A DNA stretch of 37,365 bases from an uncultured Clostridia bacterium (lineage in GTDB: Bacteria; Bacillota; Clostridia; Oscillospirales; Acutalibacteraceae), in contig CAJFUH010000114.1 of NCBI GenBank assembly GCA_904420155.1, forward strand, positions 1 through 37,365. The letters run 5' to 3'. The position numbers and the translations under genes are program-made. The notes beneath the pieces were generated by a model. It saw only the letters and a program-made list of their open reading frames with translations. It was not told the DNA's origin and searched no databases. Below, one piece after another: positions 2,691-10,342 of this stretch (positions are counted from its first letter, which is position 1; each line of letters begins with the position of its first letter).

Positions 2691-3032
2691 TTATTTGGAT
2701 CTTTCCAGCCTTCGTTTTTCCTTTTTGCTCTCTATTACATGCCGGATTGCCATAACAGGATGATGGAAAAGCATACGAGGACCGGAAAACCGCATAACCT
2801 CCCGGATTTTTTCCCTCATTTCCGGTTTATAGCAATGTACTTTGCAGTTGGAACAAAAAGTCTTGGTTTCCATAAAAGGACAGTGGTCGCTGCGCTGGCA
2901 AGCATAAGCCTCCAGCTTTTTACAATCGGGACACAAGCCCTGTTCCGGATGGTGCCTTTTTTTACAGTAAAGAGCGATCATCTGGGAAACCATCTGTTTT
3001 TCCCTCTCCCTTTTCTCTGCAATACTTTTCAT
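2691..3032 (-). CDS. Nitrous oxide-stimulated promoter family protein (small Cys-rich)
   Basis: 113 aa with pattern MIxxYCxxxH...CxxCxxLxxYAxxRxxxCPF...TFCxxCxVHCYxPxMRxxIRxVMRFSGPRM; TAATG overlap with the upstream ABC gene. Confidence 0.8.
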   Translation of the reverse strand: MKSIAEKREREKQMVSQMIALYCKKRHHPEQGLCPDCKKLEAYACQRSDHCPFMETKTFCSNCKVHCYKPEMREKIREVMRFSGPRMLFHHPVMAIRHVIESKKEKRRLERSK

Positions 3033-4690
3033 TAGCTCATCCTTCCCTGTTCTACGGAATATACCGTATCGGCAATACGCATGGTGGAAGCCCGATGGGA
3101 CACCAGAACCACCGTCTTGCCTTTTCTCTCCTTATGCAGAGACTGCAAAATCACCGCTTCGTTCAAGCTGTCCAAATTGCTGGTAGGCTCATCCAAAAGG
3201 ACCAACGGCGCTTGATGCAGAAAGGCCCGGGCCAACCCTATGCGCTGGCGTTCTCCTCCGGATAAGGTATCCCCCAGTTCCCCTACCGGAGTATCATACC
3301 CTTGCGGCAATTTGGTAATAAAATCGTGGATCGATGCTTTTTTGCAGGCTTCCTCAATTTCCTCTCGCGTAGCGTCGCGCTTGGCAATGCGGATATTCTG
3401 CTCAATACTGTCATGAAATAAATGCGTCTCCTGCGTGACATAGCTTTCCATTTTTCGCAGATTATCGGTATTGATCTCCCCGACGTCTGTATCGGAAATC
3501 TTGACGCTGCCCTGCTGTACATTCCAAAAACGCATCAGCAATTTTAGAAGGGTGGACTTTCCGCTTCCGCTTTTCCCGACGATTCCCACCACTTGATTTT
3601 GTGGAATCTGTAAGGAAATATCGGACAAAATCATCTCTTCTCTATAAGCGAAGGTGACATGTCCCACCTCTGCCCCCGAGAAGGTTATCTCCGGCTTTCC
3701 CTTGACTTCTTCTACCACAGGGCTCTCATCCAGGATATCCAATACCCGGTTTCCAGCGGCAAAAGTATTTTGAAGGGTGCTTCCCAAATTGGCCAACGCC
3801 ACCACCGGCCCAAAAGAGCTCATCAGGGCAATCATAGGGATTAACACGCCGTCAAACCCTGTCAGCCCTCTCTGATAGAGGAGTACCGCAACCGCCAAAA
3901 GCAACAGGTCAAAAACCAGGATCGCCGTATTGGTAACCGCCATATTGCGCCCTGTGGAATATTTCATCTTTTCTTCTTCTTTGGCCAATCCATCTGTCCG
4001 CTGATTCATCTCTTCCAGGCGTTTTTCCCCCCTATGATATTGGATCGTTTCGGACAGGCCCCGCAGGCTATCCAATACATAGCTACTCAAATCGCCGGAT
4101 TTGCTTCGAAATTTGATGCCGTCATCTCCGCTGGTTTTGGAAACAACCACTGGAATCACCACGCCTACAACGAGATAAGCCACTGCCGCCACCAATCCCA
4201 AAATCCAATGGTATTGCCCAATAAAAATGCACATCACCAGCGACATCAGCACAGCGATTAAAATGGGGGAAATCGTATGGGCATAGAAGACTTCCAACAG
4301 TTCAATATCCGAGGTGATAACGGAAATCAAATTTCCTTTGTCCCTTCCCTCCAGCTTAGCTGGGCAAAGGCGGCGCAGCGCCCGAAACACATGATCCCGG
4401 ATCAACGCCAGCAGTTTAAAGGCCAAATAGTGGTTGCATGCCTGTTCCCCATAGCGCAGTATCCCCCGCAGAAGCGCAAAAGCACCGACGCAAACAAAGG
4501 CGGCGCCCGCCGCCACCGGCACGGAAAAACCCAAAGCATCCAGCACTGCATATCCCCCAAAAATGGTGATAAAAGCGGCGCACAGATGCCCGATCACCCC
4601 CATACATACCGCCAATACCATCACACCGGTCAACGGCTTGACCAGTTGGAGAAGCCGTCCGCAAATAGCTAAATTACTTCTGCGTTTCAT
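3032..4690 (-). CDS. ABC transporter permease/ATPase, CydC-like
   Basis: TM domain plus NBD: GKSGSGKST, LSGGERQRIGLARAFL, LVLLDEPTSNLD; start at MKRRSN (ATGA overlap with upstream gene). Confidence 0.85.
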   Translation of the reverse strand: MKRRSNLAICGRLLQLVKPLTGVMVLAVCMGVIGHLCAAFITIFGGYAVLDALGFSVPVAAGAAFVCVGAFALLRGILRYGEQACNHYLAFKLLALIRDHVFRALRRLCPAKLEGRDKGNLISVITSDIELLEVFYAHTISPILIAVLMSLVMCIFIGQYHWILGLVAAVAYLVVGVVIPVVVSKTSGDDGIKFRSKSGDLSSYVLDSLRGLSETIQYHRGEKRLEEMNQRTDGLAKEEEKMKYSTGRNMAVTNTAILVFDLLLLAVAVLLYQRGLTGFDGVLIPMIALMSSFGPVVALANLGSTLQNTFAAGNRVLDILDESPVVEEVKGKPEITFSGAEVGHVTFAYREEMILSDISLQIPQNQVVGIVGKSGSGKSTLLKLLMRFWNVQQGSVKISDTDVGEINTDNLRKMESYVTQETHLFHDSIEQNIRIAKRDATREEIEEACKKASIHDFITKLPQGYDTPVGELGDTLSGGERQRIGLARAFLHQAPLVLLDEPTSNLDSLNEAVILQSLHKERKGKTVVLVSHRASTMRIADTVYSVEQGRMS

Positions 4691-6429
4691 GCTGTTTCCT
4701 CCTCCCTCCGGTACTGTTCCAAACTCTGTTGGGCGCCCCATAGCCGTTCATATTCCCCATGAAGCGACAGCAGTTCCTGGTGGGCGCCGCTCTCCACTAT
4801 ATTCCCCTCCCGAACCACATAGATCCGATCCGCCGGAACTACGTTGGCCAGGCGATGGGAGATGAGCAATACCGTTTTTGACTGAGATAGTGTGTAAATC
4901 TGTTCCATAATATCGTTTTCGCTTTCTACATCGATATTGGATGTGGCCTCGTCGAAAATGTAAACAGGGCTGTCATGAAGAAGCGCTCTGGACAACGCCA
5001 AACGCTGGCACTGTCCACCGGAAAAATTAGAAGCCTTTTCCAACAGCAAGGTGTCCAACCCCTGCTCGCTTCTCAGGAAATCCGCAAGCTTTGTTTTTTC
5101 CAAAGCCTCCCACAATTGTTGATCGGTGGCTTGGGGATTGCCCATCCGCAAATTTTCCCGTACGGTCCCCTTAAATAAATAGCTATTGTGGCTGATATAG
5201 GTAATATGGCTCATTAAGCAATCCTCTTGTATTTGGGACAGCTCCACTCCACCGATGGTGATGGATCCTCGATACCCTTTTTTCCTGCCCATCAGAAGAG
5301 AAGCTATGGTGGATTTTCCGCATCCACTTTCCCCTACGATAGCGGTAAAGCTGCCCTTCGGAAATTCCATAGAAACTCCGTACAAGATCTCCCGCTCCTC
5401 TTGATAGGAAAAGGAAACTTCCCGATAGGAAATATCCCCAGACTGGGGCGGGATCATTTCTGTCTTGGGTTCCGGCTCAGGCAAGTCCAGCAAACGGAAA
5501 ATTTTATCGCTTGCCGCCATTCCATTCATGGCGATATGGAAAAAGCTGCCCAACTGCCTCATGGGGATGAAAAAATCCGCCGACAACAGAATAATAGCGA
5601 TACATCCTCCCAAAGATACATGGCCCGCCTGAAATTGGGTAACTGCCATGATCACGCCCAGCGCAGCTCCTCCATAAGCGACCAAATCCATAATGGTAAT
5701 GGAATTTAACTGCATTGTTAGAACCTTCATGGTAATCTTGCGGAATTTTTCCGCCTCCCGGTTCATCTCTTCCTGTTTATAGTCATCCGCCTGATAAATT
5801 TTCAGGGTGGTCAAACCTTGTAAATTTTCTAAAAAAGTATCGCCCATGGCGGTATATTGCCCCCAATATTTCGAGAGAAGCTTTTTGGCAAAAGTCTGTA
5901 CGCCTGCAATAGCTGCCGGGATCAACGGGACGCATACCAGCAGTACAATGGCCGCAGGAAAATTGATAAAAGATAACACCGCAAACAGCGTAATGGGGGC
6001 CAGCATACTATAAAAGAACTGGGGAAGATACGCGCCAAAATAGGTTTCCAGCTGGTCTACCCCCTCCACAGACATCTGTACCACTTCTGAGGAAGAAACG
6101 TCATCGGTATAAGAAGCGCCTAAATGCAACAGTTTCTGATAAATCTTTTCCCGTAATACTCTCTTGACCGACTTAGAGGAAAGGTATCCCATACGGCTGG
6201 CCCCTGTGGTACATAAAAACCGTATCACTAACGCGGAGGCTACCGCAACCGCCACAAAAATCAGCGCGTTCTCGTCCATATCTCCCGTTACCATTTTCTG
6301 CAAGAGGGAGGCTATGGAAAAAATCATTCCCATATTTGCAACCAGCCCGCACCATTGCAGCAGTACATTTGCCGCTATGTACTTCTTACTTTCCGGTACT
6401 GTTCCAATCAAACGTTTATTAATCATCAT
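4687..6429 (-). CDS. ABC transporter permease/ATPase, CydD-like
   Basis: GESGCGKSTIASL, FSGGQCQRLALSRALL, YIFDEATSNID; six-TM ABC exporter N-terminus; forms a pair with the downstream ABC gene. Confidence 0.85.
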   Translation of the reverse strand: MMINKRLIGTVPESKKYIAANVLLQWCGLVANMGMIFSIASLLQKMVTGDMDENALIFVAVAVASALVIRFLCTTGASRMGYLSSKSVKRVLREKIYQKLLHLGASYTDDVSSSEVVQMSVEGVDQLETYFGAYLPQFFYSMLAPITLFAVLSFINFPAAIVLLVCVPLIPAAIAGVQTFAKKLLSKYWGQYTAMGDTFLENLQGLTTLKIYQADDYKQEEMNREAEKFRKITMKVLTMQLNSITIMDLVAYGGAALGVIMAVTQFQAGHVSLGGCIAIILLSADFFIPMRQLGSFFHIAMNGMAASDKIFRLLDLPEPEPKTEMIPPQSGDISYREVSFSYQEEREILYGVSMEFPKGSFTAIVGESGCGKSTIASLLMGRKKGYRGSITIGGVELSQIQEDCLMSHITYISHNSYLFKGTVRENLRMGNPQATDQQLWEALEKTKLADFLRSEQGLDTLLLEKASNFSGGQCQRLALSRALLHDSPVYIFDEATSNIDVESENDIMEQIYTLSQSKTVLLISHRLANVVPADRIYVVREGNIVESGAHQELLSLHGEYERLWGAQQSLEQYRREEETA

Positions 6430-6579: not shown

Positions 6580-6629
6580 ATAACCCCCGTCGAAAAGTTA
6601 GATAAGGCTAACTTTTCGACGGGGGTTAT
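6580..6629. repeat. 21-bp perfect inverted repeat, 8-nt loop
   Basis: ataacccccgtcgaaaagtta / gataaggc / taacttttcgacgggggttat; no T-run follows on either strand. Confidence 0.9.
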
Positions 6630-6675
6630 CGGTTGCCTTATCGCTTTTTACTATATCATAAAGTCTACCTGTCAG

Positions 6676-6717
6676 GGGCAAATAATTTGTAGCGTATGTG
6701 CTACAAATTATTTGCCC
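6676..6717. repeat. 18-bp perfect inverted repeat, 6-nt loop
   Basis: gggcaaataatttgtagc / gtatgt / gctacaaattatttgccc; a 24-nt segment recurs at 6770-6793 (21/24 identical). Confidence 0.9.
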
Positions 6718-6819
6718 TTGAACACTTTTTGAAAAATTTCTATGATTTCTCTTTGAGGTTTTATAAGTTGCATATATGCTACAAATTATCTGCTTTTCTT
6801 TTTTGTGAAACAACCATTG

Positions 6820-7659
6820 CTAAATCATAATGGTAAAAATTGCGGTACTCTCTGGCATATAAAGCGGACCCACGCTACAATCCATTTTCAAACACACGCT
6901 TCCATGAAACATTGTCCCTATTCCGCTTCCCATATTGATAAATTGTAACATCTCCGCTGGGAACTGCAAAAAATCTCCATTGCGTTCTGCATCGCAGAAT
7001 GCCGCCCCGTCAAAGTATTTCATATTGCAGATTTTTCCCTGCATTTTCTTTCCATCTATTGTGGAAGACCGCACAACAGAAACTGCTTTCAGCCGGATCA
7101 ATCCCTGTGATTTTTTTACCACCAGTTCGCATGGATGTTCAAACCCATCGTTAGCCATGGAAATATTGTTGTGCCCTTCTACATTTTCTTTATAAATCAT
7201 AAAAGGGAATACATACGATCCATCCCTTAAATGACGGCACAAATCAGACCCGTCAAACTGTTTCCTGCCTTTCAGCACATGTTGAATATGATAGCGTTCC
7301 TCCATTCTTTGGATCATTTGAAAGGTTTCATCAGAACAATATAAAGATAGGTATCCAGCATCTATCTGTGCATTTGTGGGGCTGACCCCTTCATACATAA
7401 GATGGCTGACTGCTATTTCCATGCGATCGCGGTACCGCTCAGCCATTTGGATGCCGACACGTGTCAGCCTGGGGTGTCTACTATCGGAACGGTCTAAAAA
7501 GCCGTCCTTTTCCAAAGCTATCATGGCCCGGCTGATGGTATATTTCTCCACCACCAAAGTCTTAGATAAATTGGTGACGGTACAATTCTCCGGCGACATT
7601 TTTAAAAAACAGATCAAAATTCGCATCTTTAATAACTCTGTGCTTTCCGGCATATACAA
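6820..7659 (-). CDS. Winged-helix regulator, DtxR-derived N-terminal region lacking metal ligands, with C-terminal domain of unknown function
   Basis: 279 aa; N-terminal ~115 aa aligns by eye with the DtxR proteins at 8267 and 9875 (AERYRDRM...EGVSPTNAQIDAGYLSLYCSDETFQMI vs AEKIYERH...LGVDPKVAVEDACRMEHVISSESFAAI). Confidence 0.7.
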   Translation of the reverse strand: MYMPESTELLKMRILICFLKMSPENCTVTNLSKTLVVEKYTISRAMIALEKDGFLDRSDSRHPRLTRVGIQMAERYRDRMEIAVSHLMYEGVSPTNAQIDAGYLSLYCSDETFQMIQRMEERYHIQHVLKGRKQFDGSDLCRHLRDGSYVFPFMIYKENVEGHNNISMANDGFEHPCELVVKKSQGLIRLKAVSVVRSSTIDGKKMQGKICNMKYFDGAAFCDAERNGDFLQFPAEMLQFINMGSGIGTMFHGSVCLKMDCSVGPLYMPESTAIFTIMI

Positions 7660-7669
7660 ATTCCTTTCT

Positions 7670-8146
7670 TTATGGGGATACTGGATGTTCTTCCCTCTGC
7701 ATGCTCCGCACGGGATACCCCGCCCCCTGCATAATCTGTCTGAGCTCTTGTTCTGAAAGCTTGTGCTCCGACCATACTTTTATTTGTCTTTTTTCTAAAT
7801 TTGTTTTTACAAAAAAGCCCTTCTCCCTGCAAAAAATTTTTGCCAGCTGTTTTTTATCTTCCTGAATCATAGCGCCGTCTACTTGTATGAAATACATATT
7901 AAGGTAGTGGGAAACTTTCTGCTTTCTTTCCCGGATATATTTTTTACCTACCTCAGTGACTCCACAATACCCCAGGCATAACCTTTTGCAGTAACTTTTT
8001 ACGCCAAAAATAAAAATAAGGAAGAAAAGAAGGCAAATTAAAATAGCTATCGTCACGGAATCCCCCTGTGCCCACCTAACTGAATTAAATATAACCGTCA
8101 ATAAATTTTGTTTTGGCATATTTCTAAAACCACACTTTTGTATCAA
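7670..8146 (-). CDS. Single-TM membrane protein with degenerate HMA-like (ferredoxin-fold) C-terminal domain
   Basis: TM segment TIAILICLLFFLIFIFGV, Cys-containing juxtamembrane segment, then YFIQVDGAMIQEDKKQLAKIF...VKTNLEKRQIKVWSEHKLSEQELRQIMQGAGYPV, which has the HMA pattern without CxxC. Confidence 0.6.
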   Translation of the reverse strand: MIQKCGFRNMPKQNLLTVIFNSVRWAQGDSVTIAILICLLFFLIFIFGVKSYCKRLCLGYCGVTEVGKKYIRERKQKVSHYLNMYFIQVDGAMIQEDKKQLAKIFCREKGFFVKTNLEKRQIKVWSEHKLSEQELRQIMQGAGYPVRSMQREEHPVSP

Positions 8147-8266: not shown

Positions 8267-8662
8267 ATGAAAATAAAAGAATCCGCCGAAAATTATTTGG
8301 AGACTATTTTAATTTTGCACAACAAAAAAGGTTCTGTCCGATCTATTGATATCGCCACAGAATTGGAGTTTTCCAAACCCAGTGTCAGTGTAGCAATGAA
8401 AAATCTTCGGGAAAACGGATATATTGAAGTAAGTCCGGAAGGTTATATTACCTTACTAGAAAAAGGACGAGAAATCGCGGAAAAAATTTATGAGCGCCAC
8501 ACGCTCCTTTCTGAATGGCTGACCGCCTTAGGGGTGGATCCAAAAGTTGCAGTGGAGGACGCCTGCCGTATGGAACATGTCATCAGCTCAGAAAGTTTTG
8601 CCGCTATTAAGCGCCATGTCCAAGACAAAACAGACGACGATTTCTCTATATCAAATAAATAA
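8267..8662 (+). CDS. DtxR/MntR-family metal-dependent transcriptional regulator (Asn at the first ligand position)
   Basis: MKIKESAENYLETILIL...VRSIDIATELEFSKPSVSVAMKNLRENGYI...YERH...DACRMEHVIS; promoter TTGAAA-N18-TATAAT upstream. Confidence 0.9.
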   Translation: MKIKESAENYLETILILHNKKGSVRSIDIATELEFSKPSVSVAMKNLRENGYIEVSPEGYITLLEKGREIAEKIYERHTLLSEWLTALGVDPKVAVEDACRMEHVISSESFAAIKRHVQDKTDDDFSISNK

Positions 8663-9874: not shown

Positions 9875-10261
9875 TCAGCCTTTCTTTTCCAAAAACCCTT
9901 GCTGTTTCAGATAATTCTTAAAAGCTGCAAAGCTTTCCGGGCTGATGGCGTGTTCCAGGCGGCAGGCGTCCTGTACAGCCGTTTTATGTTCTACCCCAAG
10001 CGATTCTAATACCTGGGAAAACAATAAATGCCTCTCATAAATGGTTTCCGCAATTTGTTTTCCCTCTTCCGTTAACGAAATTTCATATTCTTCATCCATA
10101 GAAATATATCCGCCTTCCCGTAAATTCCGCATGGCAACACAGACACTGGCCTTGGATACCCCCATTTCCGCGGCTATATCAATGGACCGGACGGTATTTT
10201 TTCTATTTTTTAAAATTAAAATCGTCTCTAAGTAATCTTCTCCGGATTCCTTTACCTTCAC
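9875..10261 (-). CDS. DtxR/MntR-family metal-dependent transcriptional regulator
   Basis: MKVKESGEDYLETILIL...VRSIDIAAEMGVSKASVCVAMRNLREGGYI...YERH...DACRLEHAIS. Confidence 0.92.
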   Translation of the reverse strand: MKVKESGEDYLETILILKNRKNTVRSIDIAAEMGVSKASVCVAMRNLREGGYISMDEEYEISLTEEGKQIAETIYERHLLFSQVLESLGVEHKTAVQDACRLEHAISPESFAAFKNYLKQQGFLEKKG

Positions 10262-10324: not shown

Positions 10325-10342
10325 GGTTAGTATTATCTAACC
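10325..10342 (-). promoter_or_regulatory. Candidate operator upstream of the second dtxR-like gene, GGTTAG-N6-CTAACC
   Basis: Perfect 6-bp arms ggttag/tattat/ctaacc, 64 nt upstream of the start; same architecture as 9816-9833. Confidence 0.55.

Follow-up and report, generated by a model that had tools for sequence, protein, structure and literature searches.

Which signal does a DtxR-type regulator follow when none of its metal ligands is left and an additional domain has been joined to its C-terminus? The question is raised by gene P0001 in a 37,365-nucleotide stretch of DNA (the window) from an uncultured Clostridia bacterium of the family Acutalibacteraceae. The explanation that best fits the evidence, and one that we consider probable as a whole, is that P0001 represents a family, so far without a name, of repressors that descend from DtxR and work as dimers, and that it acts as a cytosolic haem sensor for haem acquisition or trafficking. 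The regulator, its DNA-binding half and the neighboring genes that matter here are as follows.

6820 to 7653, reverse strand: P0001 regulator, 277 amino acids, with a DtxR/MntR-type winged helix-turn-helix (wHTH), dimerisation helices and a C-terminal NEAT-like domain.
7468 to 7653, reverse strand: wHTH, residues 1-62, from the MntR profile match and the AF2 model (helices 5-18, 26-33 and 37-49 plus a wing).
7273 to 7461, reverse strand: DtxR-type dimerisation helices, residues 65-127, from the profile match and the model; metal ligands all replaced.
7670 to 8146, reverse strand: P0004, a membrane protein directly upstream of P0001, gap of 16 bp.
8267 to 8662, forward strand: P0002, an ordinary small DtxR with intact metal ligands.
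9875 to 10261, reverse strand: P0003, an ordinary small DtxR with intact metal ligands.

The P0001 reading frame is open over 6820-7659 on the reverse strand. An AAAGGA ribosome-binding site lies 8 nt 5' of the ATG at 7653, which is the likelier start since the TTG at 7659 is too near this site. Full-length homologues exist (64%, 43% and 38% identity), so the frame is not due to chance. P0004 and P0001 are probably co-transcribed. P0004 has no match in Pfam or NCBIfam; its end is a stretch resembling an HMA (heavy-metal-associated) domain without the CxxC motif.

The profile of the P0001 family matches MntR, IdeR and DtxR across the wHTH and the dimerisation region, with an E value of 1.1e-12 for E. 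coli MntR (2h09, spanning residues 14-119) and about 3e-9 for B. subtilis MntR. The dimerisation helices (65-127) are present in the AlphaFold model of P0001 (pLDDT 86), and the best Foldseek matches of the whole model are all DtxR, IdeR or MntR; a Foldseek search of a viral structure library with the model gave nothing below an E value of 0.001. MarR models match only the HTH (residues 22-61), for P0001 below the cut-off, and the MntR match is far better. A MarR assignment is not supported, as there is no whole-protein MarR match and the dimerisation helices are of the DtxR type. Matches of P0001 to a GFP/calcium sensor, an alanyl-tRNA ligase and Gp22 were set aside as noise. A first-pass annotation had aligned P0001 with P0002 by eye and inferred a DtxR-type N-terminus. 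The relatedness is real (28% identity over 97 amino acids, E 6e-8 for this single pair), and the profile and model evidence agrees on the N-terminus. No single Pfam or NCBIfam model covers the whole length of P0001, and no known family describing the entire protein was found among them. At the level of sequence, these comparisons show that the wHTH half descends from DtxR. P0001 thus shares a wHTH and dimerisation helices with MntR, DtxR and IdeR, which are repressors of metal acquisition, but it lacks their metal ligands and an SH3-like third domain and carries a NEAT-like domain instead.

The loss of the metal ligands is a property of the whole family. Ordinary DtxR proteins from related genomes (26 sequences) keep D/N/M, E, H, C, E and H at the six metal positions almost without exception. 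The corresponding residues of P0001 are L, R, M, G, S and L, so that no ligand is kept. In 36 NEAT regulators, D/N/M is replaced by L/F/I, E by R/Q and H by M/I/R at positions 1-3, and C is replaced by L/Y/M, E by A/S and H by A/L at positions 4-6; metal-ligand residues persist only as stray single ones. The first-pass annotation had listed L, M, M, G, S and L for P0001, which agrees at five sites and differs at the second, read here as R. The register of the N-terminal helix can slip by one at this site, and a non-ligand is found in either register. The substitution that it had described is therefore sound and extends to all six positions in about 36 homologues. Judged by these residues, the metal switch has been lost in the P0001 family.

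The features of the C-terminal half are given below.

6823 to 7260, reverse strand: NEAT-like beta domain, residues 132-277, from Pfam, family and neighbor-NEAT profiles.
7150 to 7161, reverse strand: SMAN, residues 165-168, without variation in alignment A2; it corresponds to the SM/SSM lip motif found in NEAT domains.
6847 to 6861, reverse strand: YMPES, residues 265-269, containing the candidate axial haem ligand (inferred).

NEAT domains are the haem-binding modules of Isd and Shr surface proteins. The separate C-terminal domain that had been noticed but not assigned is confirmed as residues ~132-277, mostly beta strands. P0001 alone matches the Pfam NEAT model (PF05031) with an E value of 1.9e-4 and 22.3 bits, which is under the gathering cut-off of 32.8 bits. 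The model is matched by 19 of 22 family members, and the best single relative reaches 2.4e-7 and 31.6 bits, covering most of the model. The domain profile of the family matches the IsdA NEAT chain 4myp (E 5.7e-7) and the NEAT chain 3sik (E 8.6e-7), presumably B. anthracis IsdX1. The clearest test of the relationship is a seed profile built solely from the NEAT domains of surface proteins encoded beside the regulators, and so independent of Pfam; it matches the C-terminus of every regulator with E values of 1e-11 to 1e-5. The direct profile similarity to these Shr-like neighbors is also seen with hhalign (97.7%). Since Foldseek with the whole model gave only DtxR matches, the C-terminal domain was modeled separately. 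The top three matches of the isolated domain are IsdA NEAT domains (from IsdA-haem structures), although they are weak (E 0.05-0.07, TM about 0.34-0.38); for a predicted structure this is consistent with a NEAT fold and not conclusive. Profile comparison thus shows residues 132-277 to be a divergent NEAT domain, by this measure related to the neighboring haem-acquisition surface proteins. The domain shares the DGxY...SM...lip, and putatively the beta sandwich, with the NEAT domains of IsdA, IsdC, IsdX1 and Shr. Known NEAT domains are secreted or surface-anchored haem carriers, whereas that of P0001, which has a wHTH at its N-terminus and neither a signal peptide nor an anchor, is cytosolic and fused to a DNA-binding domain. 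Together, the lost ligands and the new domain support the earlier proposal that a DtxR scaffold has moved from metal to another signal.

Both the NEAT-like nature of the domain and the haem context of the loci make haem or porphyrin the likely ligand. Among the 33 complete members, 27 have His and two (the window and L054) have Tyr at position 265, for a total of 29; the other four (L062, L065, L068 and L069) have neither. In P0001 the last strand reads Y265-x-x-x-S269, with Ser in place of the second Tyr of the NEAT YxxxY motif, which is reduced to (Y/H)xxxS in the family. The residue is inferred to align with the first Tyr of YxxxY. This equivalence rests on an ungapped by-eye comparison of the last strand, as the MAFFT alignment of the last two NEAT strands is unreliable across the families. 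Most likely, P0001 binds haem or porphyrin via Tyr/His265, an inference for which there are no ligand data.

An alignment query recovered 26 regulator loci from a species-level genome collection, where a single-sequence query of genome contigs had found no regulator. Within Acutalibacteraceae, 16 of 398 genomes carry a regulator. A class-wide scan, in which most matches were ordinary DtxR proteins, added about half a dozen full-length members, distant ones included. In a tree of the DtxR part, a single branch (SH-aLRT 95) separates the regulators from the rest; the resolution of the tree is weak because it is built on only 122 columns. The genome of the window encodes one more member of the P0001 family (G000:C127:3-821; L031), which is 38% identical and meets the contig end just before the expected site of an uptake operon.

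The family is linked to haem acquisition loci. In most loci, genes on one strand follow the order regulator, NEAT surface protein, Shp, FecB-like substrate-binding protein, FecCD and ATPase, an operon that resembles Shr-Shp-HtsABC of streptococci. The Shp homologues match PF11545 (1e-42 to 1e-51), the FecB-type protein is a lipoprotein, and some of the surface proteins, such as that of locus L036, combine NEAT with HID, LRR and FIVAR domains. The linkage extends to distant families and to one Coriobacteriales genome. Of 24 control loci of ordinary DtxR proteins, none has a NEAT gene within +/-1.5 kb. A pair of genes with the ABC-exporter fold and a YgbA-family gene recur near the regulator-linked haem operons. 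Downstream of the regulator, the window resembles L033 and L055 in having this pair and YgbA alone, and the assembly (91.7% complete) has no other NEAT (uptake) gene. The genes in the window are as follows.

4687 to 6429, reverse strand: CydD-like half of a heterodimeric ABC transporter (TIGR02857, 2e-118, below its cut-off).
3032 to 4741, reverse strand: CydC-like half of the ABC pair (TIGR02868, above its cut-off).
2691 to 3032, reverse strand: YgbA_NO-family protein (PF11756, 1.4e-48), a recurrent partner in regulator loci.

Genes of the YgbA_NO family ("nitrous oxide-stimulated promoter") were observed in haem-acquisition loci L033, L034, L047, L055, L144, L145 and L151, a recurrence hinting at a role for the family in haem or iron metabolism.

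Inverted repeats in the window are as follows.

6597 to 6612, no strand assigned: GTTAG-N6-CTAAC box, upstream of the CydD-like gene and contained in a perfect inverted repeat of 22 bp (6580-6629).
10326 to 10341: GTTAG-N6-CTAAC box ~65 bp upstream of P0003.
6672 to 6721, no strand assigned: second long inverted repeat, perfect, with the core TTTGTAGC-N6-GCTACAAA.

Regulator loci totalling 575 kb contain 107 copies of the GTTAG-N6-CTAAC box, near-duplicate loci included, compared with 0-3 copies for any other spacing. Its usual position is 40-130 bp ahead of the regulator, with another copy before the next gene. The box is also found upstream of ordinary DtxR genes in regulator-free genomes and, in the genome of the window, precedes feoA/feoB and a flavodoxin gene (L077, L080, L081 and L083). 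For this reason it was dropped as proof of an operator of P0001 itself. Given its presence at Feo and ordinary DtxR genes, the strongly conserved box is most readily interpreted as the iron box of an Oscillospirales Fe-DtxR, the binder here being unproven. The GTTAG half-site resembles that of the DtxR/IdeR box; the classical 19-bp box differs in spacing. The descent of the NEAT regulator from DtxR allows it to share the box, a point that remains open without DNA-binding data. The G792, G704 and G618 regulator loci have an intact operon and no exact box, with near matches in some. A dyad search around the regulators found no second recurring site. The TTTGTAGC-N6-GCTACAAA half-site recurs about 100 bp away at 6778-6793, and the repeat at 6672-6721 could serve either as an additional operator or as an intrinsic terminator. 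The Coriobacteriales regulator has a GTTAT-N6-ATAAC variant immediately upstream; this variant is no more than a hint, as it occurs at chance frequency (2 genome-wide versus 2 in the control).

The proposed mechanism starts from a dimeric DtxR-derived repressor that, as sequence and profile comparison show, has lost its metal switch and has a cytosolic NEAT domain in its place. By binding haem or porphyrin through Tyr/His265, this domain would inform the wHTH of the state of the cytosolic haem pool. The regulator is inferred, in the absence of DNA-binding data, to act at the promoters of the adjoining haem genes, namely the Shr-Shp-HtsABC-like operon in relatives and the CydDC-like ABC pair and YgbA in the window. 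Haem most likely serves as a co-repressor, that is, as feedback on haem acquisition, and an ordinary Fe-DtxR would cover iron via the GTTAG-N6-CTAAC boxes of the same promoters. Of all the steps, the switch direction is inferred with the least certainty, at little better than even confidence. The co-repressor is favored because the promoter of the ABC pair has the iron box common to feoAB and the flavodoxin gene, suggesting induction by iron starvation. Alternatively, haem may be an inducer, in which case the apo-regulator would repress the ABC pair and haem would relieve this repression, allowing the pair to export excess haem (detoxification). This possibility, which has the haem-sensor core in common with the preferred explanation and differs in the switch direction, is less probable but well worth retaining. 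In its favor, the window contains the CydDC-like pair without any uptake genes, CydDC has been reported as a haem transporter (PMC10374445), and Streptococcus agalactiae provides a known case of haem-controlled efflux (PMC2858704). Apart from the iron box, it has to contend with the ABC pair of relatives, which sits with haem uptake genes.

Two loci contain a second regulator beside the first.

Locus L144, 7805 to 9512, and locus L145, 9979 to 11625: tandem regulators.

In G792 and G704, a DtxR that retains its metal ligands stands directly before the metal-blind NEAT regulator. The C-terminus of this DtxR resembles a NEAT domain that has diverged strongly (hhalign E 1e-4, probability 58%). 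The metal site has been kept by one subunit and the NEAT motifs by the other, which suggests, from two loci only, a duplication followed by a division of labor. The tandem looks like a split of metal and haem functions between two subunits, and it lends some weight to an unlikely reading in which haem binding has been lost from the NEAT-like domain, leaving a protein-interaction or dimerisation module and making the regulator responsive to a partner or, as a heterodimer with a metal-loaded DtxR, a modulator of the iron response. The iron boxes at the same promoters and the four members without the ligand candidate also speak for such a module. However, the SMAN lip, the C-terminal HMPES and H/Y265 are among the best-conserved residues of the family, and the tandem is seen in just two sampled loci. 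Decay of a DtxR paralogue to a state without signal input would account for the missing metal ligands and for the regulator copies that are in fragments or truncated at contig ends (L051, L053 and L070), but it is barely credible given full-length ORFs conserved in dozens of genomes, residues of the new domain that do not vary and a place in the operon that is conserved as well. In a tentative extension of the haem-sensor explanation, metal-blind DtxR-NEAT fusions would be an intracellular haem-sensor class of gut Clostridia, and sporadically of other phyla, some of them paired with a metal-sensing sister whose NEAT domain has decayed; as a heterodimer or competing pair, the two would read iron and haem at shared promoters.

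The proposed working of P0001 is like that of PefR (MarR family), HrtR and FhtR (TetR family), one-component intracellular haem sensors that control haem transporters, but their ligand domains are unrelated and they belong to other HTH families. MtsR of Streptococcus pyogenes, a DtxR-family regulator of haem-utilisation genes, controls shr-shp-hts; it senses metal and is not known to have a NEAT domain. Haem genes are included in the MtsR regulon of group A Streptococcus (PMC6593403). No description of a NEAT domain within a transcription factor was found in the literature, subscription papers and preprints not being covered. If the haem-sensor explanation is true, an extracellular transport module has been recruited as the intracellular input domain of a transcription factor, and there would be a testable answer to how haem and iron are regulated separately in anaerobic gut Firmicutes. 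The loci also reveal a conserved haem-locus architecture in commensals, comprising Shr-Shp-HtsABC, the ABC pair and YgbA, and offer a route toward the function of the YgbA family.
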